From a virus, in IMG/VR virus record IMGVR_UViG_3300011114_000882, positions 1-28,636 of that record: a stretch of DNA of 28,636 nt. One strand, given 5' to 3'. Of this stretch, positions 14,993-28,578 are shown one piece after another; position 1 is the stretch's first letter, and every line of letters starts with the position of its first letter. The notes below the pieces were generated by a model, which was given only the letters and a program-made list of their open reading frames with translations, was not told the origin of the DNA and made no database searches. A program made the position numbers and the translations under genes.

Positions 14993-16429
14993 ATGGCTCT
15001 AGTAAAAATAAGCTCCAATATGATAGTACCGCCCGCGGTCAGCGGGTACTCTGGATCTTCCGGTTCATCCGGGTATAGTGGCGCCTCTGGGCCCGGTTCT
15101 GGTTACTCTGGTTATTCAGGATGGTCTGGTTATTCAGGCTACTCCGGACCGACCGGTGCCGGCACATCTGGCTACTCAGGGCCTAGTGGGTATAGCGGCC
15201 CATCAGGGTATTCTGGTTCAGGTATTTCCGGAAGATCTGGTTACTCAGGTATTTCAGGGTATTCTGGTTACTCAGGCTACTCCGGACCGACCGGCGCGAC
15301 GGCCGCCTCAGGTTATTCTGGTTACTCCGGCATTTCAGGTTATTCAGGATATTCAGGTATATCAGGTTACTCTGGTACCTCAGGTTTTTCCGGCATATCA
15401 GGTTTTTCCGGTAAATCAGGTTATTCAGGTTACTCGGGGTATTCTGGCTACTCAGGTATTTCTGGTTACTCAGGCATTTCTGGCTATAGCGGTATTTCTG
15501 GTTACTCAGGCTACTCAGGTATTTCTGGGTACTCCGGCATTTCAGGATATTCTAGCTACTCAGGATATTCCGGTATATCTGGTTACTCAAGTACATCTGG
15601 CTACTCAGGCATTTCAGGCTATTCAGGTATAGCTGGAGCAGGAGCGGCATCAGGATATTCAGGCATTTCAGGGTATTCTGGTTACTCTGGTATTTCAGGT
15701 TATTCTGGTTACTCAGGTTATTCAGGCATTTCTGGTTACTCAAGCACGTCTGGTTACTCAGGTATATCTGGTTACTCAAGCATTTCAGGGTATTCTGGCA
15801 TTTCCGGGTATTCTGGCATTTCCGGGTATTCTGGCATTTCCGGGTATTCTGGTATTTCAGGGTACTCAAGTACATCAGGTTATAGTGGCGCTGGCGCAAA
15901 AGAAACAGTTACCTATGGTAATTCATTTACTGCTGGTAATATAATTAAAAAAACTTCTGGTGGATGGGCCCTTGCTCAAGCTGATTCAGCTGCAAACGCT
16001 GAAGTAGTTGGGGTAGTACAATCAGCTACAGGAGCTAATTTTACCGTAATATATTCTGGCCCGATTACAGGGTTTACAGGGCTAGTCGATAGTCAAGTTT
16101 ATTTTCTATCAGACACCGTAGCAGGTTCTGCAGTATCAGTAGAACCCACCACTGCAGGTAGCGTTACAAAACCCGTAATGATTGCTACCAGCTCTACTAC
16201 TGCAAATGTAGAGATAATGAGAGGATTCTTAGTAACTGCATTTGCACCAACAATATTTGCAAGCTATATTGTTAGTGGTTTACCTGCCGCAAACGCATAC
16301 GCATATGGTATAGCATTTGTTACAGATGCAAATCAAGCTGCTGGTACAAGTTTAGGTACTACCCCCACAGGAACAGGCGCGGTAGTAAGAGCAGTATATA
16401 GTAATGGAACAAGTTGGTTGTTACTTTAA
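14993..16429 (+). CDS. Collagen-like tail fibre with (Gly-Tyr/Ile-Ser)n repeats
   Basis: This gene encodes 478 residues. Residues 1-17 (MALVKISSNMIVPPAVS) are probably the attachment end. Residues 18-302 are Gly-X-Y triplets, mostly Gly-Tyr-Ser and Gly-Ile-Ser with Gly-Phe-Ser, Gly-Thr-Ser and a few Gly-Pro triplets near the start. Two short breaks (TGATAASG near residue 105 and GIAGAGAASG near residue 220) interrupt the pattern. Residues 303-410 form a beta-rich domain starting KETVTYGNSFTAGN. The tip, about 420-478, has VSGLPAANAYAYGIAFVTDA and ends VYSNGTSWLLL, which fits the common phage fibre C-terminal domain. Proline is nearly absent from the repeat core, so a true collagen triple helix is uncertain. 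Other-frame open readings here are by-products of the repeat. Confidence 0.9.
   Translation: MALVKISSNMIVPPAVSGYSGSSGSSGYSGASGPGSGYSGYSGWSGYSGYSGPTGAGTSGYSGPSGYSGPSGYSGSGISGRSGYSGISGYSGYSGYSGPTGATAASGYSGYSGISGYSGYSGISGYSGTSGFSGISGFSGKSGYSGYSGYSGYSGISGYSGISGYSGISGYSGYSGISGYSGISGYSSYSGYSGISGYSSTSGYSGISGYSGIAGAGAASGYSGISGYSGYSGISGYSGYSGYSGISGYSSTSGYSGISGYSSISGYSGISGYSGISGYSGISGYSGISGYSSTSGYSGAGAKETVTYGNSFTAGNIIKKTSGGWALAQADSAANAEVVGVVQSATGANFTVIYSGPITGFTGLVDSQVYFLSDTVAGSAVSVEPTTAGSVTKPVMIATSSTTANVEIMRGFLVTAFAPTIFASYIVSGLPAANAYAYGIAFVTDANQAAGTSLGTTPTGTGAVVRAVYSNGTSWLLL
15044..15898 (+). repeat. Gly-Tyr/Ile-Ser coding repeat array
   Basis: About 95 nine-base triplet-of-codon units encode Gly-X-Ser, often in a Tyr-Tyr-Ile order. 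Most copies differ at third bases. Positions 15791-15844 hold three identical 18-nt copies in tandem, with a fourth diverged copy after them, which suggests recent slippage or unequal exchange. Such arrays change length easily between strains. Confidence 0.9.
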
Positions 16430-16461
16430 TAGTTTAAAGTGTTGGCAGTTGATGTTCTGGT

Positions 16462-16469
16462 GATAAATA
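16462..16469 (+). promoter_or_regulatory. Late-like promoter element GATAAATA
   Basis: GATAAATA matches 7 of 8 bases of the T4 late promoter and ends 9 nt before the ATG of the 495-residue gene, in the 49-nt gap after the collagen-like fibre. It would start a new transcription unit inside the tail run. Confidence 0.5.
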
Positions 16470-16478
16470 ATAGTAGTA

Positions 16479-17966
16479 ATGTCCACCAGCAACACAGTTG
16501 TAGATACCGCTACTACACAAAGCCAGATAGACTCTTATCTTAATACCTTATCTCAAAAGTATTTAGCTAATGACGTATATATTGTTTCTGGTACCAATAG
16601 CGGTATTGTATCTGCTAGTGTAACTGCTTTATCTCCATATAGTAATCTATCTAATCGGTATTACCCTACAGTAGCAGGCATTTCTAATAAAGGCATTAAT
16701 TTAATGACCCGTGCCCAGTTAGGGGGGTATTTTGTACCAAGTAATTTAGGTGCTTCTCAGTACCTTGCTAAAAATATAACTTATACATTTAATTCTGATC
16801 AAATAAAAAATGGTGAAGTATATCACTTCATTGAACCAACGAGATTCAATAAAGGCCGTGGATTAACCCAAAAGGACCAAGGGAACGTAATAGATCACCT
16901 CATTAACATAGACTGGATCAAAGCTAGTAATGTATCTGAGTATTACAATGGTAATATTATTAATACAGATACTTTTCAAAAGTTCTTACCGTATCAATCA
17001 GTATATGAGACCAGAAAATCGGATAGTAACGGGGTGGTAAATGCCCGTAATGATTTTGAATTTTGGCATGGGGATAAAAAACAAACTTGGACGGAGTCTA
17101 ATAGTGCTACCAAATTAACCCCTGAAAAGTATTTTGATTTAGCTTCCCGGATACAAGGATTAGTAACCACTACTGGTAAAGAATTGTATTCCTGGAACAC
17201 TGATGTATTTGGTAATCAGTATGCGCTTTATAAAACTATAACCAACCCACACTCTTTATATGACTCTACCACAGCAACTGGTTTGTTATGGGTTAAGACT
17301 ATTGATGATACTATAAGTCTTGCACCTTCTGGATTAAATTTAATATATAATGCCCATAAAAACAGTATCACTGATTATAGCCAATTAACCGGTAATAATA
17401 TTATTAATTTTGAAGTGTTCTTTGATACTTTAGTAATACAACTATCAAGCTCTATACTATACGAAAAAATTACTTTTAATTACAATAACTATACTATTGA
17501 GCAATCTTTACAAAACTTTCAAGCTCTTAATATAGGCAATACCAACAGTAACGCCCTATCTACTCAAACCTTAAACTCTATATACGGTATCCCTGGACCT
17601 ACTGCTAACACTTATTACGGCGGTAACTGGTATAGTGGGAATGAAAAGCTTATAACTATTTGCACATTACTCTCTACCACTTTAAGTGGTACTAGTACCT
17701 CTATTATCAGTACCAGCGGGCTTTCAAGCTTTATAATACCAGTATTGTATAGACTAGATCTTAATAATCCCCAGGAACGGGTAAGAATATACCCAACTAA
17801 TGATACTGATTTTACTGAATATGTTTACCCGCTTTCTAATGTAAGTTATATGGAAGCGCCGGTGTTTTGCTATAACGAAGATACTAAACTTTACTTAACC
17901 ACTTTTATTTCTTTTTCAGGAGTAAGCCAGCAAGTAAATCTTATTAACTATAAAATAAACGCGTAA
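16479..17966 (+). CDS. Tail/virion protein of unknown function
   Basis: This gene encodes 495 residues. No family was recognised. The sequence is Asn/Thr/Ser/Tyr-rich and mostly beta by appearance, as expected for an appendage or baseplate protein. Landmarks are a helical N-terminus ([18 protein letters not shown]), NEFW-like [15 protein letters not shown] in the middle, [18 protein letters not shown], and a C-terminal [20 protein letters not shown]. There is no signal peptide or membrane segment. It follows a GATAAATA element, and its stop overlaps the next start (TAATG), so the two are translationally coupled. The context between a fibre and a repeat-linker adhesin suggests a structural or attachment role. 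Confidence 0.7.
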
Positions 17967-19690
17967 TGTCTGTCACCACATTTACATTTCCAACTTCTGC
18001 AAGAAACTCGCTTACTAATATAAGCGGGACGGCACCATTTACAATAGTATTTCAGCCGAGCGCTATGGATGTTGGTACTAATGTTATAGGTAATATTACC
18101 TATGGGCTATCTGGCGGGGCTAGTTATATTAAACAGTATACATACTACTCTCTAGCTGCCGCTTTAGCAAATCCAAATAATGTTGATAGCCGCAGTAATT
18201 TTCCTTATACTTTTTATAATTCGGTTTCCGGTCAAACTATAACCACTATAACAGTCTCCGCTACTCTTATTCCAAGCTTAGAAATAGTGGTATATACTAT
18301 TGATGTTTATACTTCAAGTCCTTGGTTAACTAAAACCCCATTAGCTGCTGGTAGCGACAGTGTTTTTAATACAGTACATTTAATTAAAAGTAGAGCTTGG
18401 AGCACTTATAATAATCAAATAATAGTTGCTGAAGGCAAAATTACAAGTCTTTCTGCTAGTCAAATAATACTATTTAATACGTCCGATATAGTTTCTGCTG
18501 CTGTCTTTAAACCAGTTGAGCCTAATCTTCCGGTACCGTCAGTTACTCCGTCGATAACACCTAGTGTTACAGTAACACCTACCCCCACTGTTACTCCTAC
18601 TGTCACTCCTACTGTTACACCTACCGTTACCGTTACTCCTACCGTTACACCTACCGTAACACCTACCGTAACACCTACCGTTACCCCTACCGTTACCGTT
18701 ACTCCTACTGTAACGCCTACCGTTACCCCTACAGTTACCGTAACACCTACGGTAACCCCGACAAAAACCCCGACACCTACTCCTACGGTAACCCCGACAG
18801 TAACTCCGACGATTACCCCTAGTATAACTATTACACCAACAGTAACACCTACAGTTACACCTACAGTTACACCCACTGTAACACCTACCATAACTCCAAG
18901 TATTACTCCAAGTATTACTCCAAGTATAACTATTACGCCTACAGTTACACCTACAGTTACACCCACTGTAACACCTACCATAACTCCAAGTATTACTCCA
19001 AGTATTACTCCAAGTATAACTATTACGCCTACGGTAACACCTACAGTAACACCTACCGTTACACCTAGTGTAACTCCTTCTTTATCCCCACCACCGCCTA
19101 GCCCTACACCTACCCCGACAGTAACTCCTACACCTACCCCGGCTAGTGGGTTATGCGATACGTACGAGTATTATACTACGGCAGGTGTTGATAATTTATC
19201 TGTTTACCTTTGTGTTAACGAAGGCGCTGCGACCCAGCAAAACGTAAATAGCGGCGACCAGCTTTGCCTTTGGAACGCATCGCAACCTTTCCCTGTTAAC
19301 CCTGGTAATTTTGGTTCGTGGACTCGAGTTGGGGATTGTTATGTACCACCAACCCCTAGTGTTACTCCTTCTGTAACGCCCACGGTAACACCTTCTGTTA
19401 CTCCTAGCAATACTCCCGCCCCTACTCCAGGATCTTCACCGTCTCCTACACCTAGTATAACTCCTACCGTAACTCCTACACCCTCTCCTTCCCCAATACC
19501 TTGCTATTTGTATAAAATCTACGCTGATAACGACACGGGGCTTATAGCGTATACCTATACTAGTTGCGCTGGAAATGTTATTTCAGTATCGTCTAGCGGT
19601 TATATACCAGGACAATATGATGAAGTATGTGCGCGTGTTAATACAGTTAGCTCTTTCCAGACCGTTACAGGCGGTACTGTGAGCTGTTAA
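17966..19690 (+). CDS. Adhesin-like tail protein: N-terminal domain, Pro-Thr-Val-Thr linkers, two four-cysteine modules
   Basis: This gene encodes 574 residues. Residues 1-190 form a beta-rich domain with [12 protein letters not shown] near the start, possibly a degenerate PKD-like fold. Residues about 191-396 are a Pro-Thr-Val-Thr linker containing [14 protein letters not shown] blocks. A 62-residue module (397-458; Cys at 397, 416, 434 and 458) follows, then a second Pro/Thr linker (about 459-512) and a final 62-residue module (513-574; Cys at 513, 534, 555 and 574). The same kind of module opens the 1033-residue protein encoded at 23505. The layout resembles rod-like linkers that present small disulfide or metal-bound heads. 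The ATG overlaps the previous stop. Binding target unknown. Confidence 0.8.
18535..19150 (+). repeat. Pro-Thr-Val-Thr coding repeat array
   Basis: Short repeats of ACACCTACNGTN type encode Pro-Thr-Val-Thr-Pro. The same codon pattern occurs again at about 19340-19501 in this gene and at 23688-23890 and 24142-24300 in another gene. Antisense open readings of Val-Gly repeats across it are by-products. Confidence 0.9.
18851..19030 (+). repeat. Perfect 90-bp tandem duplication
   Basis: Positions 18851-18940 and 18941-19030 are identical base for base, and each encodes the same 30 residues. Other parts of the array vary at third positions, so this copy event must be recent or kept uniform. Confidence 0.95.
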
Positions 19691-27143: not shown

Positions 27144-27183
27144 AAAGGACCTAGTATACAAAACTATACTAGGTCCTTTTTTT
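27144..27183 (+). terminator. Rho-independent terminator after the arginine-rich gene
   Basis: A perfect 15-bp stem (27144-27158 with 27165-27179) closes loop CAAAAC and runs into seven T residues (27177-27183). It starts 7 nt after the stop codon. The next gene begins 5 nt after the T run, which makes read-through control likely. Confidence 0.95.
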
Positions 27184-27188
27184 CTATA

Positions 27189-27458
27189 ATGGATATATCG
27201 TTTAAGTCCGTAGCATTTCAATTACAATACACAAGCGCACAGATTGATGCTGTGTACGCCTTGCTCGGTTTAGTAGATAATGGTAATTATCGGATCCCAT
27301 CTGCGACTTTAAAGATGTATAAAGGCGATTTACCAGAAAAATTTAAAGAGTGGCTAGAACAGTGTGATGAAAATATAAATATATGTTTCGAGCATCACAA
27401 GATGCCTGATACTAACCTCTCATCACTTAATGATTGGGACTTAATTGAATACGATTGA
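27189..27458 (+). CDS. Small unknown acidic protein
   Basis: This gene encodes 89 residues: MDISFKSVAFQLQYTSAQID, then a helical YALLGLVDNG, a basic LKMYKGDLPEKFKEWLEQC helix and an acidic end (NDWDLIEYD). It has cysteines at CDENINIC. It sits directly after a terminator with TATAAT overlapping its ATG, so its promoter is unclear; read-through of the terminator may supply it. It is followed after 3 nt by the next small gene, so the two are probably an operon. No family recognised. Confidence 0.6.
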   Translation: MDISFKSVAFQLQYTSAQIDAVYALLGLVDNGNYRIPSATLKMYKGDLPEKFKEWLEQCDENINICFEHHKMPDTNLSSLNDWDLIEYD

Positions 27459-28118: not shown

Positions 28119-28149
28119 AAATATTTATACTATTTAATTTCGATATATT

Positions 28150-28578
28150 ATACAAACTTTTCTTCCATATCAAGATTTTAAAGAATCTGCTCGATGCTTA
28201 GATTATAGACGTCTCGGTAAACAGCGAGTTGAGGTTCTTCAGCTTCTTAACTCTTTTAGTAGACCGGATTATAAAGGGTGGAAAAATCATCCAGCCCGAG
28301 AAATGTGGCGTGGTCATGAAAATGCATTAGTAATGTACGGCCAAGCTATTTGTAATGAATGGATTTCTCGAGGCTATAAAGATACTTGTTTTGGAAAAAT
28401 TACCGCTCATTACCATTTTAACAAGGGTTCTACGTTTCCTTTATGGATTGATAATAAAGACATACACCTCAGTCACAAATCAAACTTAATACGGAAGTAT
28501 CCGGAGCATTATAGCCCTTTATGGCCTGATGTACCTAATAATTTAGAATACGTGTGGCCTGTAGCTGTAATTAAGTAA
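28150..28578 (+). CDS. Pyrimidine dimer DNA glycosylase-like protein (MSMEG_6728-type), apparent AUA start
   Basis: The frame is open from after TAA 28135-28137. Family members begin MQTFLPY, and here the corresponding codons are ATA CAA ACT TTT CTT CCA TAT, so the likely start is ATA at 28150 (or ATT at 28147). The first ATG (28303) would remove the conserved segment DFKESARCLDYRRLGKQRVE and so is not credible. The protein is then 142 residues, the usual family length. Other matches are GWKNHPAREMWRGHENAL, EWISRGYKDTC, LSHKSNLIRKYPEHY and YVWPV at the end. Family members are annotated as pyrimidine dimer glycosylase or endonuclease V-like repair enzymes, but the activity of this branch is not well tested. 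Confidence 0.8.
   Translation: MQTFLPYQDFKESARCLDYRRLGKQRVEVLQLLNSFSRPDYKGWKNHPAREMWRGHENALVMYGQAICNEWISRGYKDTCFGKITAHYHFNKGSTFPLWIDNKDIHLSHKSNLIRKYPEHYSPLWPDVPNNLEYVWPVAVIK

Follow-up and report, generated by a model that had tools for sequence, protein, structure and literature searches.

Near-cognate start codons have been characterized in few genes, according to the available text of one study (PMC5472188). The gene infC starts with AUU in E. coli, AUC in Streptomyces and AUA in S. aureus, as given in the accessible parts of two papers (PMC5472188; PMC13009471), and pcnB of E. coli has an AUU start, as stated in a title cited within the second (PMC13009471). In the same partly available sources the near-cognate codon of infC and pcnB is either suggested or demonstrated to restrain or regulate expression (PMC5472188; PMC13009471). 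In S. aureus the AUA start of infC was seen by ribosome density, and AUA starts are also described for ccpN and citZ; in the text at hand, AUA reporters of ccpN and citZ in poor medium yielded about 10% of the AUG level, and that of ccpN up to 30% in rich medium (PMC13009471). The Streptomyces gene sigR begins with GTC behind a long Shine-Dalgarno sequence (SD), is repressed by IF3 and has been mis-annotated by gene callers, as far as the available text goes (PMC5472188). In T4 endonuclease V (DenV), the accessible description is of an N-terminal threonine whose alpha-amine forms a Schiff base, with a nearby glutamate being catalytic (PMC3285167).

The gene considered here belongs to the MSMEG_6728 family and has ATA at the family start codon. 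The first-pass annotation had called AUA starts extremely rare in bacteria, a statement that needs qualifying, given the description of infC, ccpN and citZ of S. aureus in the part of PMC13009471 available. The gene lies in a viral record 28,636 bases long, the whole of which is referred to below as the window, and which probably represents part of the genome of a T4-like myovirus. T4-like genes in the window include those for gp23, PhoH, ribonucleotide reductase, dUTPase, the clamp loader and the baseplate wedge; the best-listed relative of its capsid protein is 38.4% identical, and no tRNA genes were found in the window. At 27150–27189 a 9-bp inverted repeat, CCTAGTATA...TATACTAGG, with a 6-base loop and followed by seven T, was noted by eye; this terminator-like hairpin and T run end directly before the ATG at 27189, i.e., at a gene start. 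The region 15000–19140 is repetitive, having many mutual matches with a related contig, and its repeats are probably tail-protein domains.

The frame is open on the plus strand from 28138 to 28578, closed upstream by an in-frame TAA (28135–28137) and ended by a TAA whose last base is 28578. After the upstream TAA come the codons TTT CGA TAT, ATT (28147–28149) and ATA (28150–28152), followed at 28153 by the CAA that encodes Gln2. Codon-by-codon reading found no ATG, GTG or TTG between this stop and Gln2, and bore out the earlier statement that ATT and ATA are the only near-cognate codons there. At its family start the window gene thus carries a near-cognate codon, and no canonical start is available in frame before Gln2. 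Read from ATA it occupies 28150–28578 on the plus strand, 142 codons plus stop. When calling is confined to ATG, GTG and TTG, the ORF starts at the first canonical in-frame codon, the ATG at 28303–28305 (Met52 of the family alignment), and yields 91 amino acids. This is the truncation that had been foreseen. A family alignment of 14 members has 41 invariant columns, and 21 of these lie in the 51 lost codons, which agrees with the high conservation claimed for that part; the 14 were drawn from 20 members after omission of duplicates, near-duplicates and L003, which has an internal stop. Callers limited to these three codons would thus clip the most conserved end of MSMEG_6728 proteins. RNA structure near the window start showed nothing unusual (z −0.10).

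Assignment of the protein is based on two profiles. It scores 174.2 bits on NCBIfam NF038085, the MSMEG_6728 family (cut-off 100; model positions 1–148 of 149), and 75.7 bits on Pfam PF03013, Pyr_excise (E=3.8e-21; gathering score 23); T4 DenV scores 53.3 bits on the same Pfam profile. Position 1 of the NF038085 model falls on the ATA codon, so that the comparison with MSMEG_6728-type proteins places the family methionine at 28150, with codon AUA, as the first-pass annotation had it. An AF2 model of the protein has a pLDDT of 89.6, with first helices at residues 10–16 and 19–37. In VIA-align this model matches T4 endonuclease V with Z 9.5 (rmsd 3.2, 105 residues aligned; next best Z 4.0), a score to be read knowing that, for helical folds, values below about 13 can be frequent. 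The structural alignment opens by pairing residue 1 of the model with residue 2 of the chain. In one MAFFT alignment the invariant Glu28 stands over DenV Glu23 (the catalytic glutamate is Glu22 in mature numbering), but the hhalign match is not significant. A direct sequence link to T4 DenV was dropped: hhalign of the family profile against T4 DenV was not significant, PDB sequence searches gave weak matches with other names only, and Foldseek alone on the model gave no match at E≤0.001. The proposed link to T4 endonuclease V rests on Pfam and on the VIA comparison of a predicted structure. The description of the locus as a DNA repair gene thus rests on family and predicted fold; no reported activity for the MSMEG_6728 family was found in the available portions of the literature searched.

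The place at which these proteins begin varies little. A canonical codon (ATG, GTG or TTG) stands exactly before Gln2 in all 118 distinct members listed in one sample in which the first codon was left free; in a second set, 65 of the 71 distinct viral members and 79 of the 80 genome loci have it at the family position. Those that depart from this are L061, L072, L101, L103, L107, L109 and L147. L101 and L103 have GTT at the family position and ATG or TTG one codon upstream, giving Met-Val-Asn-Thr-Phe; initiator methionine is trimmed before valine, so these two would regain the usual N-terminal position. At L147:136, in a family member from Actinophytocola xanthii, there is a CTG behind GGGGAGG, without a canonical in-frame alternative. 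Start distances vary widely in 32 dCMP deaminases. Relatives of DenV have a start position as fixed as that of MSMEG_6728 proteins: all 63 distinct ones begin Met-Thr, and their starts are ATG in 42 and TTG in 21, with no ATT, ATC or ATA (collectively ATH). The 21 DenV genes starting with TTG (set L441–L519) mostly share a similar upstream stretch, which perhaps overlaps the preceding gene. Since DenV relatives are equally locked yet have no ATH, locking alone does not yield AUH starts. Methionine is retained before glutamine, and MSMEG_6728 proteins with Gln2 probably keep it. By analogy with the T4 enzyme, we infer that the N-terminus of the family may be fixed by catalysis, in which event a near-cognate codon at the same site would be the sole possible substitute for a lost AUG.

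Near-cognate codons at this position are not confined to the window. Viral contigs were scanned for ATH-Gln-Thr-Phe together with the LGKQRVE block at fixed spacing, a pattern into which ATH directly before Gln2 is built, and 33 contigs were found with ATH exactly at the family start codon. Thirty are distinct (ATT 23, ATC 6, ATA 1). In 24 of the 33 there is no canonical in-frame start before Gln2, which defines the strict cases; nine have one. With the first codon left free, the 178 distinct relatives with the core pattern among the matches listed have ATG (147), GTG (24), TTG (2), ATT (3), ATC (1) or ATA (1), that is, ATH in five of 178 listed members not chosen for their start codon. Among the matches listed, ATH occurs in none of the 118 of one sample and in five of the rest, which makes the rate of 5/178 uncertain. 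That sample derives from 120 stretches: 118 new and distinct loci, L034, and one stretch, presumably a locus already counted, that was omitted. The query of one free-codon scan began with Ile, a slight bias. Capture-recapture puts the family in viral_contigs at about 560 members, probably too low, since the order of the records may be identical in the two scans. In actinobacterial chromosomes (396 genomes) ATH was found in none and NTG in 19, and 80 further genome loci have ATG (57), GTG (22) or CTG (1), with no ATH.

With the first codon omitted, a FastTree tree of 196 members requires at least 21 changes between ATH and other codons; when the strict cases alone are counted, the window among them, the minimum is 15. 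Neither figure can separate gain from loss. Several ATT genes recur, nearly unchanged, in contigs that bear different sample numbers (L285/L297, L288/L301, L279/L295 and L275/L299), which makes sequencing error unlikely for those genes. In the clade L275/L279/L304 the proteins are 70–79% identical, and ATT and a purine-rich SD are present throughout; the most distant pair has third-base identity in 11 of 43 shared codons, i.e., its silent sites are saturated. Judged from sequence, the ATT codon of this clade bears the marks of a long-used AUU start. In contrast to these old ATT lineages, the ATA codons are shallow: both cases, the window and L008 (= L293), are tip changes beside ATG relatives that are 96–98% identical.

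With respect to SD strength, 21 strict distinct ATH members have a median of −8.7 kcal/mol compared with −4.3 kcal/mol for 98 ATG members (p=2e-5). After thinning to 90, 70 and 50% identity the difference gave p = 1e-4, 0.0017 and 0.024, respectively, the last with 13 ATH and 60 ATG members. At the same loci 60 bases further upstream the median is −2.8 kcal/mol. Ninety percent of the strict ATH set lie at or below −6, and one in ten is weaker than −3; the ATA site of L008 has an SD of −7.3 kcal/mol. Taken together, the stronger SDs, the at least 15 changes on the tree and the retention of ATT despite saturated silent sites point to near-cognate starts as a genuine and recurring feature of this phage family. 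The analogy drawn earlier with the AUU of infC fits the family, in view of its 33 ATH contigs, mostly ATT with a strong SD. No paper on recurrent AUU or AUC starts in these phage genes was found in the one literature collection searched, and start codons are not discussed in the available text of the literature that names MSMEG_6728.

The window gene differs in this respect. The expected SD region (28130–28146, plus strand) contains none, the duplex energy being +0.1 kcal/mol, and the site in the nearest relative, L002, has the same value. The 16 other plus-strand genes of the window that were compared have a median of −1.65 kcal/mol, against −1.5 for random window 17-mers, which suggests that this phage mostly does without SDs; three of the 16 reach −7 or better.

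Comparison with other genes gave a less secure result. Three strict ATH starts (five in all) among the 178 listed relatives compare with none in 358 controls (p=0.036 and 0.004, respectively), of which 71 are dCMP deaminases, used for the strict test only, and 287 are other ORFs of the same contigs. The control zero is partly circular, because the 287 were counted for having a canonical codon at the voted site; the rest of the 450 ORFs voted on had a canonical codon upstream (93) or within three codons (24), were unclear (17) or had none (29). Two of these 29 have ATA with one vote each, one with an ATG a few codons on and the other in a spurious-looking frame, and the strict difference is not significant if both are counted. 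With so weak a control, enrichment of ATH over other genes is not established, and it is not claimed here. In seven of the 71 dCMP deaminases the closest canonical codon lies upstream by more than 10 codons; one of the seven is L254, an ambiguous ATC case. The phage dCMP deaminase at L254:601–930 may start at ATC behind AAAGGAGG; in frame, the closest canonical start lies 27 codons before the reference point.

The recent history of the window codon can be read from its two nearest relatives. The L002 protein is 97% identical to that of the window, and its contig is collinear with the window at about 91–93% nucleotide identity. The 12 bases before the start codon are identical in the two, and L002 has ATG at the window's ATA, so that the codon is not conserved among close relatives. 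The first-pass annotation had named just such an ATG as the result that would tell against an AUA start, and its discovery weakens the proposal; what the ATG in L002 shows is a recent single-base change, not that the window ATA is unused, but it turns a sequencing error or a damaged allele into a serious rival. With identical flanks, the ATA is most simply a recent G>A change. No second contig with ATA was found: TTTCGATATATTATRCAAACTTT matches one contig in viral_contigs, that of L002, in a search that may omit records of the window's own genome or of one very near. Between the two genes dN is 0.0153 and dS 0.319, start codon excluded. The second-nearest of 19 relatives, L003 (79% amino acid identity), has an in-frame TAA within the gene and is, by its sequence, a broken copy or an error. 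The TAA of L003:1501–1905 stands where the window and L002 have GAA, in a different gene neighborhood. An outgroup comparison with L003 places ten changes on the window branch, one at the start codon and nine elsewhere, these nine being silent (9/9); 13 are assigned to the L002 branch and six are unplaced.

We favor, at a probability of about one half, weak but real initiation at the AUA at 28150, giving a protein with a predicted endonuclease V fold. The ATG at 28150 would have mutated recently to ATA, leaving this codon as the only workable start, and the protein would still be made from AUA, in lower yield, by the ordinary initiator tRNA. The family start position, judging by its members, appears nearly fixed, while its codon varies among ATG, GTG and TTG and, repeatedly in phages, ATT, ATC and ATA. 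A catalytic N-terminal amine, as in T4 endonuclease V, would bar a move to a nearby AUG, and a near-cognate replacement would arise in the same place, usually backed by a strong SD. Use of AUA in the window is the least certain step, because its site has no SD.

The lack of a compensating SD and the recency of the change also fit a loss-of-function or strongly weakened allele from which little or no protein is made; the premature TAA of L003 in the same gene adds to this, as it suggests that the gene may be dispensable. Set against such a loss are a frame with no frameshift or internal stop and the absence of replacements among the nine polarized window-branch changes besides the start, silent changes that could predate the ATA. 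We consider loss rather unlikely. It is also unlikely, and somewhat more so, that the ATA stems from an error of sequencing or assembly, or from a minor variant picked up by the assembler, the phage truly having ATG at 28150: the codon is known from one contig and differs from L002 by a single G>A in identical flanks, but the window otherwise gives no hint of poor sequence and has long open frames, the part shared with L002 is collinear with it, and ATH in 5 of the 178 unselected members listed is far above a plausible per-base error rate, by our estimate. Initiation one codon upstream, at the AUU at 28147, would use the commonest near-cognate start of the family (23 of 30 distinct). The product would begin Met-Ile-Gln, and since initiator methionine is not removed before isoleucine its N-terminus would be displaced by one residue; with 118 of 118 distinct listed free-codon members starting directly before Gln2, this is most improbable. 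A start at ATG 28303, the first canonical codon and the choice of gene callers, is hardly credible, as the 91-residue protein drops the 21 invariant columns and both first helices of the model.

Beyond initiation at AUA 28150, a broader and more doubtful reading may be put forward by analogy. The start would be locked by a catalytic N-terminal amine, and in many phage lineages AUG would have been exchanged for AUU, AUC or AUA, which IF3 discriminates against, with strong SDs, holding a DNA-incising enzyme low or IF3-dependent; the window would represent a first step, from AUG to AUA before an SD evolved. Here "many lineages" stands for a minimum of 15 state changes on the tree, in either direction. 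A locked N-terminus as the cause would predict the same pattern in further enzymes whose N-terminus is catalytic, and the absence of ATH in 63 DenV relatives disfavors this. The recurrent AUU and AUC starts of the family are a stronger result than the AUA of the window, and they offer a natural set in which to study the evolution of AUU, AUC and AUA starts, the SD strength they need and their possible control by IF3.

With T4 endonuclease V (PF03013; 1enk, 2end) the MSMEG_6728 family appears to share a Pfam family and a predicted fold, and it differs at position 2, which is Thr in DenV and mostly Gln in MSMEG_6728 proteins. The infC and pcnB genes are chromosomal, whereas the near-cognate starts of the MSMEG_6728 family are found in phages and the codon differs between close relatives. 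Regulation is proposed or described for infC and pcnB, in the text available, and the window site differs from them in having no SD. The strong SDs of infC and ccpN of S. aureus and of Streptomyces sigR are likewise missing at the window, with its +0.1 kcal/mol; in the accessible part of PMC13009471, ccpN (AUA) and cvfC1 (AUU) of S. aureus both have a strong SD, unlike the window ATA, and reporter yields near 10% of AUG in poor medium. The phage members with ATT or ATC resemble ccpN and cvfC1, as there described, in their strong SDs. With sigR, as presented in the available text of PMC5472188, the MSMEG_6728 phage genes have in common a non-canonical start that has an SD before it and is miscalled by gene finders.
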